A stretch of DNA of 64,000 bases from Streptomyces profundus (lineage in GTDB: Bacteria; Actinomycetota; Actinomycetes; Streptomycetales; Streptomycetaceae): contig NZ_CP082362.1 in NCBI RefSeq assembly GCF_020740535.1, positions 5,763,501 to 5,827,500 of the forward strand, given 5' to 3'. Under the pieces are notes generated by a model, which worked only from the letters and a program-made list of their open reading frames with translations, was not told the origin of the DNA and did not search any database. Shown in pieces: positions 15,496 through 28,284 of this stretch. A program made the translations under genes and the position numbers. Numbering within the stretch: position 1 is the stretch's first letter; each line of letters starts with the position of its first letter.

Positions 15496-15891
15496 TCAGC
15501 GTTTCGGTGGGGTGAGGGGGAGGCCCGCGGCGCGCCAGCTCTGGAAGCCGCCGATGAGGTCGGTGGCCCGGTGGAGGCCGAGGGAGCGGAGTGACGCCGC
15601 CGCCAGCGAGGAGGCGTAGCCCTCGTCGCAGAAGAGGATCCAGCGGACCCCGGTGTCCGTCGCCTCCGGCACCGACGCGCCGCTGCCCGGGTCGCACCGC
15701 CACTCCAGGTGGTTGCGCTCGATGACGAGCGCCCCGGGGACGGTGCCGTCCCGGTCCCGCTGGGGCGTGGTGCGGGTGTCGACCAGCACCGCGCCCCCGG
15801 CCGCCTCCTGGTGTGCCCGGAGCGCCGTCACCCGGTCCAGGGTGGCGCGCGCGGCGGCGAGTTGGGCCGCTATGCCGAGGTGTTCCGTCAT
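15496..15891 (-). CDS. rhodanese-like sulfurtransferase
   Basis: This is a single rhodanese domain of 131 residues. AVLVDTRTTPQRDRDGTVPGALVIERNHLEW gives the family N-terminal signature and ILFCDEGYASSLAAASL is the active-site loop, with the persulfide-forming cysteine followed by DEGYAS. ATG 15891 is chosen over GTG 15915, since the family begins here and neither has a strong ribosome site. The gene lies 52 bp downstream of cysteine dioxygenase on the same strand. The pair probably acts on cysteine-derived sulfur, the dioxygenase oxidising cysteine and the rhodanese handling sulfane sulfur. Confidence 0.88.
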   Translation of the reverse strand: MTEHLGIAAQLAAARATLDRVTALRAHQEAAGGAVLVDTRTTPQRDRDGTVPGALVIERNHLEWRCDPGSGASVPEATDTGVRWILFCDEGYASSLAAASLRSLGLHRATDLIGGFQSWRAAGLPLTPPKR

Positions 15892-15943
15892 GGGTGCCGC
15901 CCTGTCTCTCGTCACTGCCCGGCCGCCCGCCGGGAGGGTTCCG

Positions 15944-16450
15944 TCACTTCTCGACGGGGTCCGTGCGGTCGAGCCGCAGGCGGCCCTCGGCGATCTCCGT
16001 GTAGTACGACATGGTGGTCAGCGCCGGCGCGTAGGCGTGGATGCTGACGGCGGGCTGCTCGCCCCTGTTGGTCACCTCGTGCACATGGCGCGGGCCGAAG
16101 GAGCGTAGCCCCTCGGTGGGCAGCGAACGGACGCCGGGCCCGCGTGTCGTTCCGGCCTCCGGCGGGGCGAAGGAGCGCTCGGTGAGGGTGCCGCGCACCA
16201 CGCCGAAGGCGCCGGACGCGCCGCCGTGGTCGTGGATCTCGGTGCCCTGGCCCGGCAGCCAGGTCAGCAGCCACACCTCGTGTTCGGCGCCCGTGTCGAG
16301 GCGGTGGTACCAGCGGTCGGGGGTGGTGAACCGCACCAGCGGTTCCCAGAGCGCGCGGCGGGCGGCGAAGGCGCGCACCGTGGCGGCCAACTCCTGGGGC
16401 GTGCGCGGGTCCTGGGGCGGTGCGGGCAGGGCGGGGGCGGATGTCGACAT
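15944..16450 (-). CDS. cysteine dioxygenase-type cupin
   Basis: This is a 168-residue cupin of the cysteine dioxygenase type I family, which oxidises cysteine to cysteine sulfinate with Fe(II) and O2. The metal-binding segment TEIHDHGGASGAFGVVRG supplies two histidines, with no glutamate, as in other bacterial enzymes, and HVHEVTNRG supplies the third. LLTWLPGQ and AYAPALTTMSYY are typical family positions. The start is ATG 16450; the frame continues upstream but only into low-complexity sequence. A cysteine-containing leader peptide is encoded 167 bp upstream, and the rhodanese gene follows, so expression probably responds to cysteine. Confidence 0.9.
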   Translation of the reverse strand: MSTSAPALPAPPQDPRTPQELAATVRAFAARRALWEPLVRFTTPDRWYHRLDTGAEHEVWLLTWLPGQGTEIHDHGGASGAFGVVRGTLTERSFAPPEAGTTRGPGVRSLPTEGLRSFGPRHVHEVTNRGEQPAVSIHAYAPALTTMSYYTEIAEGRLRLDRTDPVEK

Positions 16451-16616
16451 GCGGACCTCGCAGGCGGTGTGGTGCAGGTGGGGGGTGCGGGGGCGCGCGC
16501 CTCGCCCCGGCGGGCAAGGCGGCGCGGGAACCCGTGCGGAGCGGGCCGGGGGCAGCGGGCCCCGAGTCGGCACGCGAGGAGAGAGAAGGGGGAGCCGGCG
16601 GCGCGGGCTCGGCGGC

Positions 16617-16703
16617 TCAGCTGGAGCCGCGACGACAGAGCGCGCTGGCCACGCGGACCAGGTCCACATGGCATCGCGAGAAAAGGCGCTTGCCCGTCGT
16701 CAT
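16617..16703 (-). CDS. 28-residue cysteine leader peptide (cysteine dioxygenase transcript)
   Basis: This short frame encodes a peptide ending in ...SRCHVDLVRVASALCRRGSS. It matches the actinobacterial putative leader peptides found before sulfur genes, whose core is R-x-H-V-D-L-x-R-x-x-S-A-x-C. It has two cysteines, at codons 11 and 23. ATG 16703 lies 7 nt after TAAATC with TTGACC 18 nt further upstream, so the mRNA is probably leaderless. The cysteine dioxygenase gene begins 167 bp downstream after a C- and T-rich, G-poor stretch. Stalling at the cysteine codons when charged tRNA-Cys is scarce would report cysteine level. Confidence 0.85.
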   Translation of the reverse strand: MTTGKRLFSRCHVDLVRVASALCRRGSS

Positions 16704-16710
16704 GGCGAAA

Positions 16711-16740
16711 GATTTACCGTGCCCCGCCCGGCCAGGTCAA
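16711..16740 (-). promoter_or_regulatory. promoter of the cysteine dioxygenase leader
   Basis: On the minus strand TTGACC (16735-16740), an 18-nt spacer and TAAATC (16711-16716) precede the leader ATG by 7 nt. This is close to the vegetative Streptomyces promoter pattern. Confidence 0.6.
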
Positions 16741-16748
16741 GCCGGGCC

Positions 16749-16763
16749 ATATTCCTGGAATAT
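16749..16763. promoter_or_regulatory. 15-bp palindrome upstream of the -35
   Basis: ATATTCCTGGAATAT is a perfect palindrome around a single central T. Its centre is about 53 bp upstream of the predicted leader start, where an activator would sit. It lies in the region shared by the two divergent leader promoters. The binding protein is unknown. Confidence 0.55.
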
Positions 16764-16788
16764 CGGAACGCGGACGGGCCGCGTTCCG
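16764..16788. promoter_or_regulatory. hairpin next to the palindrome
   Basis: CGGAACGCGG (16764-16773) and CCGCGTTCCG (16779-16788) form a perfect 10-bp stem with a 5-nt loop, directly beside the 15-bp palindrome and inside the divergent promoter region. Confidence 0.5.
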
Positions 16789-16813
16789 TGATGTGAGATG
16801 GATCGCCAATATC

Positions 16814-16843
16814 TTGACGTCACCTCGGTGTTGCTGGCATGCT
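16814..16843 (+). promoter_or_regulatory. promoter of the TauD leader
   Basis: TTGACG (16814-16819), an 18-nt spacer and CATGCT (16838-16843) precede the leader GTG at 16852 by 8 nt, again a leaderless arrangement. CCAATAT lies just before the -35. Confidence 0.5.
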
Positions 16844-16851
16844 CACTTATC

Positions 16852-16935
16852 GTGAGTCAAGCTGACTTTCTCGTAACGCGGCTGCACGTCGATCTTCGGC
16901 GGCAGGCCAGCGCCATCTGTGCCGTCGGTTGCTGA
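16852..16935 (+). CDS. 27-residue cysteine leader peptide (TauD transcript)
   Basis: This GTG-initiated frame encodes a peptide whose core is TRLHVDLRRQASAICAVGC followed by a stop. It has the same HVDL...SA-x-C pattern as the other two leaders in this window, with cysteines at codon 23 and at the last codon. CTCACTTATCGTGAG, a 5-5-5 inverted repeat, spans its start. The TauD-type dioxygenase gene begins 313 bp downstream. Between them are a C/T-rich tract, a small hairpin (16988-17010) and a hairpin with a T run (17060-17081). The arrangement suggests attenuation by ribosome stalling at cysteine codons. Confidence 0.82.
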   Translation: MSQADFLVTRLHVDLRRQASAICAVGC

Positions 16936-17059
16936 AACAGCATCCAGCCGACGCACTTCCCCTACGCGCCTTCGCGTGACGCTCTTCCCTCCGCCGTAGT
17001 CCCGCGGAGGTGTTCGTCGCATTTCGCCGCTTTTCCGGTCCGGTGTCCCGAACCTCTCG

Positions 17060-17081
17060 TCCGGCATTCCGCCGGATTTTT
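17060..17081 (+). terminator. candidate attenuator in the TauD leader
   Basis: TCCGGC-ATTCC-GCCGGA followed by TTTTT is a 6-bp stem with a 5-nt loop and a U tract, rare in such GC-rich DNA. It lies 125 nt after the leader stop codon and 167 nt before tauD. A competing pairing could use the downstream CCGG-containing repeats (ATCCGG at 17093 and 17106). Confidence 0.55.
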
Positions 17082-17248
17082 CGGATGCCGTCGATCCGGT
17101 GGTCGATCCGGCCGGTAGACGTCCGGTAGGCGCCTTCTCGGTCGGTGAGCCAGGGGATTTCTCGGCTGCCTGGGGACCAATGTGTCCCACCCCACAGTGA
17201 TGAGTATTTCCATCAGGCATCAGGCATCAGGGAAAGGCAGCAACAGAC

Positions 17249-18148
17249 ATGACCGGCAGTGGCTTTGACATTCGAAGGATCGGCGGCCGGATCGGCGCCG
17301 AGATCCTCGGTGTCGACATCTCCCGCCCCCTCGACCCCGGCGTCGTCGCCGAGGTCAACGGCGCACTGATCGAGCACAAGGCGCTGTTCTTCCGGGGCCA
17401 GGACCTGGACGACGCGGCGCAGCTCAGGTTCGCCTCCCTCTTCGGCGAGCTGACCACCGCGCACCCCACCGTGCCTTCGGCCGACGGCCAGCCCCACGTG
17501 CTCGCCGTCAACGGCGAGGAGGGCATCCGTTCCAACCGGTGGCACACCGACGTCACTTTCCTCCGCACCCCGCCCAAGGCGACCACCCTGCGCAGCCTGG
17601 TGGTGCCGCCCTACGGCGGGAACACGCTGATCGCCAACTCGGCCGCCGCCTACCGCGATCTGCCGGACGCGCTGCGGCAGTTGGCCGACGGGCTGTGGGC
17701 GGAGCACACCAACGACCACTACTACGCCGAGCCGAGGACGGCCAAGGCCGCCGAGCACCGGCGTCGGTTCGTCTCCCGGAAGTACCGCACGGCGCACCCG
17801 GTGGTGCGGGTCCATCCGGAGAGCGGTGAACGCGGCCTCTTCATCGGGGGGTTCGCACAGCGCCTCGTCGGCCTGAACGCCGACGACTCGCGCGATCTGC
17901 TGCGCATACTCCAGAACTACGTGATCCGCCCGGAGAACGTGGTGCGCTGGAGCTGGGCCCCCGGTGACCTGGTCCTCTTCGACAACCGCAGCACCCAGCA
18001 CTACGCCCCGGACGACTACGGCACCCTGCCGCGCCTGCTGCACCGGGTGACCGTCGCCGGAGACGTGCCCGTCGGTATCGACGGTGAACGCAGCCGTGTC
18101 GTCGAAGGCGACGACGCGGAGCACTACACCCCCGCCGCGGCGGCCTGA
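17249..18148 (+). CDS. tauD: TauD/TfdA-family alpha-ketoglutarate dioxygenase
   Basis: This 299-residue Fe(II)/2-oxoglutarate dioxygenase resembles taurine and alkylsulfonate/alkylsulfate dioxygenases, which release sulfite from organosulfur compounds. The iron ligands are visible as H-x-D in NRWHTDVTF (near residue 95) and the distal histidine in RSTQHYAPDDYG. The arginine that binds 2-oxoglutarate lies in RLLHRVTVAG. HKALFFRGQ is a typical N-terminal family segment. Neighbours (sulfonate transporter genes and sulfite reductase on the other strand) support a role in organosulfur scavenging. The exact substrate (taurine, another sulfonate or a sulfate ester) is not certain. Confidence 0.85.
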   Translation: MTGSGFDIRRIGGRIGAEILGVDISRPLDPGVVAEVNGALIEHKALFFRGQDLDDAAQLRFASLFGELTTAHPTVPSADGQPHVLAVNGEEGIRSNRWHTDVTFLRTPPKATTLRSLVVPPYGGNTLIANSAAAYRDLPDALRQLADGLWAEHTNDHYYAEPRTAKAAEHRRRFVSRKYRTAHPVVRVHPESGERGLFIGGFAQRLVGLNADDSRDLLRILQNYVIRPENVVRWSWAPGDLVLFDNRSTQHYAPDDYGTLPRLLHRVTVAGDVPVGIDGERSRVVEGDDAEHYTPAAAA

Positions 18149-18175: not shown

Positions 18176-18682
18176 ATGCGGCACCTCACCGCGCTCCCCG
18201 ATCTGTCCGAACTCTCCGACGTGACGGTGACCCTGGCACCGGAGAGCCAGGACCAGGCGGACGGCTCCGTGCCGCTCGTCGGCTATCTGGTTCTGGCCCC
18301 CGCCGGGACCCAGCCGGCGCAGCTCAGCGAACTGCTCGCCGCCCAGGGCGCGTTGACCGCGCCCAAGCCGGCCGCCGCCACCCCCGGCCGGGGCCGCGGC
18401 ATCGTGGTGGACACCGAGGAACGCACCGCGACCGTCGACGGCGAACCGCTGCGGCTGACCTATCTGGAGTTCGAGCTGCTGGCGCACCTGGTGCGACACC
18501 CGCACCGGGTCTACACCAGGGAGCAGCTGGTCGCCACCATCTGGGGCTACGGCCCGGTGGGGGACCAGCGCACCGTGGACGTGCATATCGCCAGGCTGCG
18601 CCGCAAGTTGGGCGAGTCCTACCGGGAGCGCATCGTCACGGTGCGGCGGGTCGGCTACAAGTACGTGCCGGCCACCGGCTGA
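18176..18682 (+). CDS. winged-helix regulator lacking a receiver domain
   Basis: This is a 168-residue protein whose C-terminal 95 residues form an OmpR/PhoB-type winged helix: IVVDTEERTATVDGEPLRLTYLEFELLAHL, then TREQLVATIW, then RTVDVHIARLRRKLG and VRRVGYKYVP. The N-terminal 70 residues have no phosphoacceptor aspartate pattern and do not look like a receiver domain; the segment VGYLVLAPAGTQPAQLSELL may be a small ligand- or protein-binding part. It starts 27 bp after tauD with the ribosome site AAGGAAGGAG, so the two are probably cotranscribed. It may regulate the sulfur genes here, but that is inference from position only. Confidence 0.8.
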   Translation: MRHLTALPDLSELSDVTVTLAPESQDQADGSVPLVGYLVLAPAGTQPAQLSELLAAQGALTAPKPAAATPGRGRGIVVDTEERTATVDGEPLRLTYLEFELLAHLVRHPHRVYTREQLVATIWGYGPVGDQRTVDVHIARLRRKLGESYRERIVTVRRVGYKYVPATG

Positions 18683-26167: not shown

Positions 26168-26353
26168 TCAGCTGGCGTCCTGGCCGTCGTCGGCGACGGG
26201 GCGGGTGAGACCGCTGGCCAACAGGCCCAGGAACGACAGTCGGAACGCCCGGTTGCAGGCGCCGCATTCCCAGGCGCCGTGACCGGCCTCGCTGGGCCGG
26301 AGATCCTCGTCGGCGCAGTAGGGGCAGTAGAACGGCGCGGCCCGCTCGCTCAC
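26168..26353 (-). CDS. small zinc-ribbon protein of the sulfite reductase operon
   Basis: This 61-residue protein has two CxxC pairs, YCPYC near residue 10 and CGAC near residue 30, spaced like a zinc ribbon or rubredoxin-type knuckle. A short hydrophobic segment follows (RLSFLGLLASGL). GTG 26353 overlaps the sir stop codon by 4 bp (GTGA), so it is translationally coupled to sir, and cysH begins 11 bp after it. It corresponds to a small gene that lies between sir and cysH in other Streptomyces. The role is unknown; zinc binding or electron-carrier binding to sulfite reductase is possible. Confidence 0.8.
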   Translation of the reverse strand: MSERAAPFYCPYCADEDLRPSEAGHGAWECGACNRAFRLSFLGLLASGLTRPVADDGQDAS

Positions 26354-28044
26354 GTGAGCTCCTCCTCGGTGGCGCGGGCCGCCCACTGGGCGAAGCGCTC
26401 CCCGGGCTCGCGCCCGGCCTCGAAGGCACGCAGCACCCGCTCCGCGTAGTCGGCGAGACCGGTAGCGGTGACCTTGAGGCCGCGCACCTTGCGGCCGAAG
26501 CCGGGGTCGAGGCCGAGGGAGCCGCCGAGGTGCACCTGGAAGCCCTCCACCTGCTTGCCCTCGTCGTCGGTGACCAGCTGGCCCTTGAGGCCGATGTCGG
26601 CGACCTGGATACGGGCGCAGGAGTTGGGGCAGCCGTTGATGTTGATGGTGATGGGCTCGGCGAAGTCCGGGAGCCTGCGCTCCAGTTCGTCGATCAGCCA
26701 CTGGCCCCGGCTCTTGGTCTCCACGATGGCGAGCTTGCAGAACTCGATGCCGGTGCAGGCCATGGTGCCGCGCCGGAACGAGGAGGGGCGGGTGGTGAGG
26801 TCCAACGCCTCCAGGCCGTCGGCGAGCTGCTCGACCTGGTCCTCGGGCACGTCCAGGATCAGCATCTTCTGGTGGACGGTGGTGCGCACCCGGTGCGAGC
26901 CGTGGGCCTCGGCGAGATCGGCGATCTTGGCGAGTGTGGTGCCGTCGACCCGCCCCACGCGCGGCGCGAAGCCCAGGTAGAACCGGCCGTCCTTCTGCCG
27001 GTGCACGCCGATGTGGTCCCGCCAGTCGTTGGGCGGCTGCTCGGGCGCCGGGCCGTCGACCATCCGGCGCAGCAGGTACTCGTCCTCCAGCACCTGGCGG
27101 AACTTGGCGACGCCCCAGTCCTTCAGCAGGAACTTGATCCGGGCGCGGGTGCGCAGCCGCCGGTAGCCGTAGTCGCGGAAGAGGCCGACCACGCCCTCGT
27201 GCACGTCGGCGACCTCCTCCAACGGGACCCAGGCGCCGAGGCGTTGCCCGAGGCTCGGGTTGGTGGAGAGACCGCCGCCGACCCACACGTCGAAGCCCGG
27301 GCCGCGCTCGGGGTGGACCACGCCGACGAAGGCGATGTCGTTGATCTCGTGCACCACGTCCAGCAGCGGTGACCCCGAGATCGCCGACTTGAACTTGCGC
27401 GGGAGGTTGGAGTAGGCCCTGTTGCCGATCACCCGGCGCTGGATGGCCTCGATGGCCGGGGTGCCGTCGATGATCTCGTCGGCCGCGATGCCGGCGACGG
27501 GGGAGCCCACGATCACCCGGGGGGTGTCGCCGCACGCCTCGGTGGTGGAGAGGCCGACGCCCTCAAGGCGCCGCCAGATCTCCGGCATGTCCTCGATGCG
27601 GATCCAGTGGTACTGGACGTTCTGCCGGTCGGTGATGTCGGCGGTGCCGCGCGCGAACTCCTGTGATATCTCGCCGATCACCCGCAGCTGCTCGGTGGTC
27701 AATAGCCCGCCGTCGATGCGGACGCGGAGCATGAAGAACTCGTCGTCCAGCTCCTCGGGCTCCAGGATCGCGGTCTTGCCGCCGTCGATCCCCGGCTTGC
27801 GCTGGGTGTACAGACCCCACCAGCGCATCCGGCCGCGCAGGTCGGCGCCGTCGATCGAGTCGAATCCCCGGTGCGCGTAGATCGTCTCAATGCGTGTCCG
27901 CACATTGAGACCGTTGTCGTCCTTCTTCGTCTGCTCGTTGGCGTTGAGAGGCGTCATGTGCCCGGCGGCCCACTGGCCTTCGCCGCGGTGACGGCCGACC
28001 TTGCGGCGGGGGGTGCCGACGGGCTTCTTGGCGGAGTCCGACAT
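26350..28044 (-). CDS. sir: ferredoxin-type nitrite/sulfite reductase
   Basis: This 564-residue enzyme reduces sulfite to sulfide using siroheme and a [4Fe-4S] cluster. The cluster and siroheme ligands are visible as ACTGIEFCKLA and NGCPNSCARIQ in the C-terminal half. Siroheme-pocket segments TDRQNVQYHWI and AYSNLPRKFKSAISG are also present. ATG 28044 is chosen (MSDSAKK), with ATG 28025-proximal residues in frame; GTG 28101 would add 19 residues without family support. It is the first large gene of the operon. A cysteine leader peptide lies 157 bp upstream, separated from it by a C-rich tract. Siroheme for it can come from the chelatase at the operon's end. Confidence 0.93.
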   Translation of the reverse strand: MSDSAKKPVGTPRRKVGRHRGEGQWAAGHMTPLNANEQTKKDDNGLNVRTRIETIYAHRGFDSIDGADLRGRMRWWGLYTQRKPGIDGGKTAILEPEELDDEFFMLRVRIDGGLLTTEQLRVIGEISQEFARGTADITDRQNVQYHWIRIEDMPEIWRRLEGVGLSTTEACGDTPRVIVGSPVAGIAADEIIDGTPAIEAIQRRVIGNRAYSNLPRKFKSAISGSPLLDVVHEINDIAFVGVVHPERGPGFDVWVGGGLSTNPSLGQRLGAWVPLEEVADVHEGVVGLFRDYGYRRLRTRARIKFLLKDWGVAKFRQVLEDEYLLRRMVDGPAPEQPPNDWRDHIGVHRQKDGRFYLGFAPRVGRVDGTTLAKIADLAEAHGSHRVRTTVHQKMLILDVPEDQVEQLADGLEALDLTTRPSSFRRGTMACTGIEFCKLAIVETKSRGQWLIDELERRLPDFAEPITININGCPNSCARIQVADIGLKGQLVTDDEGKQVEGFQVHLGGSLGLDPGFGRKVRGLKVTATGLADYAERVLRAFEAGREPGERFAQWAARATEEELT

Positions 28045-28200
28045 GATCACGGTCTTTCTGCGGGCAGCAGGGACGCTCCGTCCTGGGGACCGGCGCGACA
28101 TCGCGGCGGGCAGGGCAGAGTCGGGAGGAAAAGACAGCAGGAAGGCGCGGAGGGAGCCGGGAGCTCGGCGGGCGGGACGAACCGTGCGGCTCGGCGCGAA

Positions 28201-28284
28201 CTAGGACACCGGACAGATGGCGCTTGACATTCGACCGAGATCCACATGGCGGCGACTCACCAAGGCAATTCCCGCTCGCGACAT
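28201..28284 (-). CDS. 27-residue cysteine leader peptide (sir operon)
   Basis: This frame encodes a peptide with the core VSRRHVDLGRMSSAICPVS and a stop at 28201. It has one cysteine, at codon 24, after the conserved R-H-V-D-L and S-A-I segments shared with the leaders at 16617 and 16852. ATG 28284 follows AACGCT by 6 nt, compatible with a leaderless mRNA. The sir start is 157 bp downstream. The region between them is rich in C and T and poor in G on the transcript strand, as expected for a Rho-loading site. The peptide probably couples expression of the whole sulfur operon to cysteine supply. Confidence 0.87.
   Translation of the reverse strand: MSRAGIALVSRRHVDLGRMSSAICPVS

Follow-up and report, generated by a model that had tools for sequence, protein, structure and literature searches.

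Two divergent putative leader peptides with an invariant UGU cysteine codon precede cysteine-dioxygenase-family and TauD-family genes in Streptomyces

Several described systems resemble the pair of leader ORFs that we analyze here. In mycobacteria, the Cys-rich upstream ORFs (uORFs) of Msmeg_5788/cysA2, Msmeg_4527/nirA, and Msmeg_0932 are likewise short and located ahead of sulfur genes, and are leaderless, as ours probably are; ribosome occupancy has been reported on the uORF ahead of cysA2 (PMC4633059). These uORFs are cysteine-responsive attenuators according to Canestrari 2020, as cited elsewhere, and a paper citing that study states that they work by translation attenuation. The Cys leaders predicted by Seliverstov 2005 for cys and cbs operons of Mycobacterium, P. 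acnes, and B. longum are also short, with Cys near the stop codon and no terminator hairpin, and Rho was suggested there (PMC1262725). They contain runs of Cys codons, and the passages describing them name no Streptomyces cys leader, cysteine dioxygenase (CDO), or tauD (PMC1262725). In S. lividans, leaders similarly precede amino acid genes and most are described as leaderless; eight are listed, none assigned to cysteine (PMC8079986). Finally, NCBIfam holds a profile, NF042934 (“putative leader peptide”, cis_reg_atten), from which we found no difference in kind for either of our leaders.

The two leaders lie in a 64,000-nucleotide stretch of Streptomyces profundus DNA (the window). The left leader ORF (16617-16703, minus strand) consists of 28 codons plus a stop (MTTGKRLFSRCHVDLVRVASALCRRGSS), and the right one (16852-16935, plus strand) of 27 codons plus a stop, with a GTG start at 16852 (VSQADFLVTRLHVDLRRQASAICAVGC). 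The ORFs are divergent, as described in the body of an initial annotation whose title had them facing each other; the 148 bp that it gave as a spacing separate the start codons. Its translations are correct: both peptides contain, in register, HVDLxRxxSA[L/I]C, and this shared block of the predicted peptides is far above chance level. Against the curated NF042934 cut-off of 27 bits, the left peptide scores 28.2 bits (E 9.9e-7) and the right 36.1 bits (E 3.4e-9), with matches that cover 17/19 and 19/19 model positions, respectively, and end at the core Cys. In a genome-wide scan, the right leader scored 34.4 bits and the left 26.5 bits, or 27.1 bits with its neighbours. The mycobacterial Cys-rich leader profiles, NF042933 and NF042936, showed weak similarity at 13.4-14.7 bits, below their cut-off of 45. 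Both putative leaders are of a kind already catalogued, as NF042934.

We compared 28 loci containing CDO relatives, with leader counts based on 18 Streptomyces loci plus our own (L063 and L073 were left out). The left leader precedes the CDO gene in all 19 Streptomyces sequences with readable upstream DNA, and the right leader is present in 14 of these 19, our locus included in both counts; it was not found in L053, L057, L060, L061, or L062. A broad regular expression detected no leader in any of eight non-Streptomyces loci. In the left leader, residues R6, R10, HVD, V, and RVASALC never vary (19/19), and the same holds for VSQA, LV, R, HVDLRR, ASA, and CA in the right (14/14). Since most codons for these residues vary synonymously, selection acts on the peptide. 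The initial annotation had named a lack of conservation in related genomes as one outcome that would speak against it; the conservation found, together with NF042934 membership, supports the assignment as sulfur-type leader peptides. The description of the peptides as cysteine-rich does not hold, as the core Cys is the only invariant one: Cys11 of the left leader is Cys in 4/19 sequences and H, W, S, Q, or E elsewhere, and the terminal Cys of the right leader is Cys in 2/14. In this, the leaders differ from the mycobacterial uORFs, which are described as enriched in Cys (PMC4633059).

The left leader begins with ATG in 18 sequences and with GTG in one, while all 14 right leaders begin with GTG. 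An ORF finder starts the plus-strand ORF at an ATG (16798; 45 aa) instead of the GTG at 16852. Since the plus frame is closed 11 codons ahead of the GTG in five relatives (L047, L048, L050, L051, and L056), and the GTG and VSQA are unchanged in 14/14 sequences, the start at 16852 is supported.

Promoter-like elements precede both ORFs. For the left leader, these are a −35-like TTGACC (16735-16740, minus strand; TTGAC in 18/19 sequences, absent from L062) and a −10-like TAAATC (16711-16716, minus strand), a hexamer that varies in relatives and lies 7 nt ahead of the ATG, a leaderless spacing. For the right leader, they are a −35-like TTGACG (16814-16819, plus strand; unchanged in 14/14) and a partly conserved −10-like CATGCT (16838-16843, plus strand), 8 nt ahead of the GTG. 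A sigma-70 consensus scan returned no promoter for either leader. At both, the distance from the −10-like box fits a start codon at the transcription start, as on a leaderless mRNA. The DNA immediately 5′ of the right leader is also conserved, as a promoter-like block. We found no operator common to both promoters by eye; a palindrome between them, ATATTCCTGGAATAT, is broken in the nearest relative and was not seen in the other upstream stretches compared, and was rejected. A conserved block like GGCATGCTCACNTATCGTGAG (16836-16857, plus strand) contains CTCAC and GTGAG as an inverted repeat that spans the start codon of the right leader. This CTCAC-N5-GTGAG is partly kept and overlaps promoter and leader, and the block could be a promoter or an operator.

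Each leader is followed by genes on its own strand. The CDO-family gene (CDO_I; 15944-16450, minus strand; PF05995, E 5.9e-19) begins 166 nt past the left leader stop and is followed by a rhodanese-like gene (15496-15915, minus strand; PF00581), which is also located downstream of CDO in 19/19 Streptomyces relatives (L046-L063 and L068). A TauD-family dioxygenase gene (17249-18148, plus strand; PF02668, E 1.5e-63) begins 313 nt past the right leader stop and reaches 235 of 313 bits with the taurine dioxygenase model NF007104, below cut-off. Next is a gene for a winged-helix DNA-binding protein with an OmpR-type output domain (18176-18682, plus strand; PF00486), in which Pfam detects no receiver domain.

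The winged-helix gene is present on the same strand downstream of the right leader at 14/14 loci by tblastn (partial in L058 and L059), making it a steadier partner of this leader than tauD. A full-length tauD match is close behind the leader at 7/14 loci (our own, L046-L049, L055, and L068). Two loci, L050 and L056, have kept the leader and the winged-helix gene around a tauD remnant (ORFs of 54 and 46 codons). The leader is followed directly by the winged-helix gene in L051 and L054, and by another ORF in L052, and tauD is 3.4 kb away in L058 and L059. In these last two, ORFs between leader and tauD read, from their translations, like an ABC transporter ATPase and permease. The winged-helix protein may regulate the neighbouring sulfur cluster.

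The nearest relatives found for the CDO-family protein are from Streptomyces (best, 94%). It retains HDH, and most members of its clade have a [YW]xR motif, whose Arg would correspond to the substrate Arg of true CDOs. Its best solved relatives, 8qfr and 8qfl, are both “Cysteine dioxygenase” by entry name. We regard the gene as a CDO-family member next to a rhodanese gene, with a presumed role in cysteine catabolism. In a tree of 80 rows, for which bootstrap support is not settled, its clade is separate from the two CDO types that other Streptomyces carry, and the sister of the clade is not fixed. The second-type CDO-family gene occurs in 23/24 congeners, forms one clade, and is followed by a rhodanese gene in 23/23. 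A related leader of the form VxLWRRVHMDLVRYAGCVCRPSC precedes it in 22/23 other Streptomyces, the exception being L125; 20 of the 23 were chosen because a leader had already matched beside them, and 3 were chosen without that criterion. The regular expression used is broad and takes in HMDL-type leaders; a narrower one catches 2/23. With the broad expression, no leader was found at the CDO homologues of L017-L045 (0/29; 19 Streptomyces and 10 from other genera) or at the second CDO of our own genome (L127).

We examined the codon for the core Cys, taken as the last codon of the NF042934 match, where the model ends, and thus read without a regular expression. It is TGT in the left leader (16635-16637, minus strand; 19/19 sequences) and the right leader (16918-16920, plus strand; 14/14), or 33/33 for the two leaders of this clade. 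It is also TGT in 77/77 leaders of our genome and the genus (70/70 by unique sequence), comprising our own genome (11/11), genus-sample loci (30/30), further hand-picked matches (16/16), and CDO leaders (20/20), although at least two places, the CDO leaders of G022 and G023, are in two of these sets. This count leaves out two kinds of sequence from our genome, L011 (no core Cys) and L013-L015 (weak matches). In a class-wide sample, the codon is TGT in 29/29 leaders over 16 family labels. The sets of 77, 29, and 33 overlap, and our two leaders are in both the 33 and the 77. The sequences without a core Cys are L011 and one leader of L175.

Other Cys codons behave differently. Between the motif and the stop, those of the 77 leaders are TGC in 85 cases and TGT in 6, and those of the class-sample leaders TGC in 49 and TGT in 11; the 50 ORFs of the window contain 133 TGC and 30 TGT. 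Besides the core Cys, none of the 16 codon columns examined exceeds 31% A or T at the third base. Since many of these sequences are related, the paralogues within our genome (11/11, versus 30 TGT among 163 window Cys codons) provide the cleaner test. The rule of an invariant core UGU is apparently new. The NF042934 model, a protein model, does not itself contain it, and among the literature matches listed, no title or abstract opening names either a CDO leader or the UGU rule.

The family is widespread, with matches in 41/41 genomes of the genus sample and 57/79 of the class sample. With 150 of 250 candidates scored, our genome contains at least 15 NF042934 matches with an E value no higher than 1, of which at least 8 exceed the cut-off, two of them helped by neighbours. 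Of the six other over-cut-off leaders listed, four are followed by genes of sulfur type, namely those for a mercaptopyruvate-sulfurtransferase-like rhodanese, a nitrite/sulfite-reductase-like protein, an SsuA-like protein, and SsuE. Behind the remaining two are genes for a binding protein of peptide/nickel type and for an SCO4226-like protein. Among the weaker matches, four are located ahead of genes for a class II aldolase, an SBP56/methanethiol-oxidase-like protein, a protein with a GST C-domain, and an SDF symporter. SsuE is the only one of all these downstream proteins over its NCBIfam cut-off, in a comparison in which several proteins were cut by locus ends.

Other divergent leader pairs occur in the class sample. 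Their two matches are separated by 127 nt in L173, 67 nt in L174, 489 nt in L175, where one leader lacks Cys, and 886 nt in L176. Their core codon is TGT in 7/8 leaders, two of which are also in the class-sample count. Read from translations rather than by profile, L174 and L176 have a sulfite reductase on one side, with cysC/cysD-like genes on the other side of L176, and L173 has a cysH-like gene. Thus, back-to-back leaders are a recurrent layout in the class.

We consider it likely that each of these two NF042934 leaders is a cis attenuator of its own operon, with ribosome pausing at the core UGU. Each leader would probably be on a leaderless mRNA, the left one attenuating CDO-rhodanese and the right one tauD and the winged-helix regulator. 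When cysteinyl-tRNA is scarce, the ribosome would slow at the invariant UGU, and the conserved HVDLxRxxSA segment, by then inside the exit tunnel, would probably contribute to this pause. A parked ribosome would turn the downstream gene on and one that has finished and gone would turn it off, through Rho or another output step; we infer that expression is on at low Cys. The profile matches, the genomic copies ahead of sulfur-type genes, the invariant residues, the kept starts and −35 boxes, and the UGU all support this explanation. Two independent cis attenuators are the best reading of the sequences; the initial annotation had proposed that one region senses cysteine for both operons, but each operon has its own leader, giving two putative sensors back to back. 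For classical attenuation, a single Cys codon is a thin sensor.

A bolder proposal, which we hold tentatively and on balance doubt, is that all NF042934 leaders work as single-codon sensors, in which HVDLxRxxSA primes the ribosome and a wobble-read UGU, never UGC, decides sulfur-operon expression. The fixed UGU would then be a built-in slow step, such that one Cys codon is enough, and in our clade two sensors, back to back, would place a thiol dioxygenase operon in opposition to a sulfonate-plus-regulator operon.

TnaC-like inducible arrest, in which nascent HVDLxRxxSAxC stalls when a thiol or sulfur ligand is plentiful and the sign of control of CDO is reversed, seems unlikely. Such a stall would suit a cysteine-degrading enzyme, the number of Cys is not conserved, and there are conserved residues 6-11 ahead of the core Cys; arrest peptides have conserved residues similarly placed ahead of the stall residue. 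However, the same family precedes assimilatory genes, which are expected to be on when sulfur is short, and a pure peptide sensor does not predict the UGU-only rule. One silent base change in the UGU is expected to disable the sensor if it depends on decoding speed, but not if it depends on the peptide alone. We find it much less probable still that the ORFs encode small, merely co-transcribed proteins acting in trans, through signaling or metal or thiol binding: this would explain the strong amino acid conservation, but those leaders whose flanking DNA was examined are all 5′ ORFs that share one core and are located before different genes, and the fixed synonymous UGU points to a decoding role. 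Although mechanical ORFs abound in GC-rich DNA, the matches to a curated model, the conservation (19/19 and 14/19), and the invariant codon leave chance or over-read ORFs a negligible prospect.

For the cis attenuators that we favor, we examined possible output steps. A simple consensus scan of 16200-17300 found no terminator hairpin with a U-tract, and no Rfam family was above gathering, both of the matches at E up to 1 being below it. Folding of 19 left-leader sequences revealed no general unmasking of the CDO Shine-Dalgarno sequence by a stalled ribosome, as the mean unpaired value was 0.16 for free RNA, 0.19 with a ribosome at the Cys, and 0.19 with one at the stop; the exception was L068 (0.01 to 0.51). 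This result gives no support to a Shine-Dalgarno model, although translation attenuation is stated for mycobacterial uORFs. Rho-dependent termination is a possible output step. C exceeds G in 62/62 leader spacers, as it also does in 20/20 CDO-A upstream regions without a leader and 15/25 intergenic controls from the window; compared with pooled controls, the left leader gave a p value of 0.35 and the other three sets gave 0.03-0.04.

Hairpins over the leader stop codons were also found. The left leader has one of 7 bp (16612-16630, minus strand; p 0.24 in our genome; 9-10 bp in 9/19 sequences) and the right one of 9 bp (16923-16953, plus strand; p 0.005; 9 bp in 3/14). The p value is 0.05 or better in 5/19 left and 3/14 right leaders, and about half of the relatives have only a short hairpin or none. 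As a functional element, it is suggestive only.

The initial annotation had also proposed that two opposite physiological needs are read at this locus. This contrast is weak, as both operons fit a sulfur-shortage response, a common logic supported by the sulfur-type genes behind four of the six other leaders. In most Streptomyces sampled, a presumed cysteine-catabolic enzyme is linked to the type of leader that also precedes sulfur assimilation genes, which suggests a place for the CDO-family dioxygenase in the recycling of sulfur and not in detoxification.

A third NF042934 leader in the window, MSRAGIALVSRRHVDLGRMSSAICPVS (28213-28266, minus strand), precedes the nitrite/sulfite-reductase-like gene (ORF 26350-28101). 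Elsewhere in the genome, the L010 leader, with HVDLGRVHTAVC and 21.8 bits (below cut-off), is the one ahead of the SBP56/methanethiol-oxidase-like gene, a further, possibly sulfur-releasing enzyme under an NF042934-type leader.
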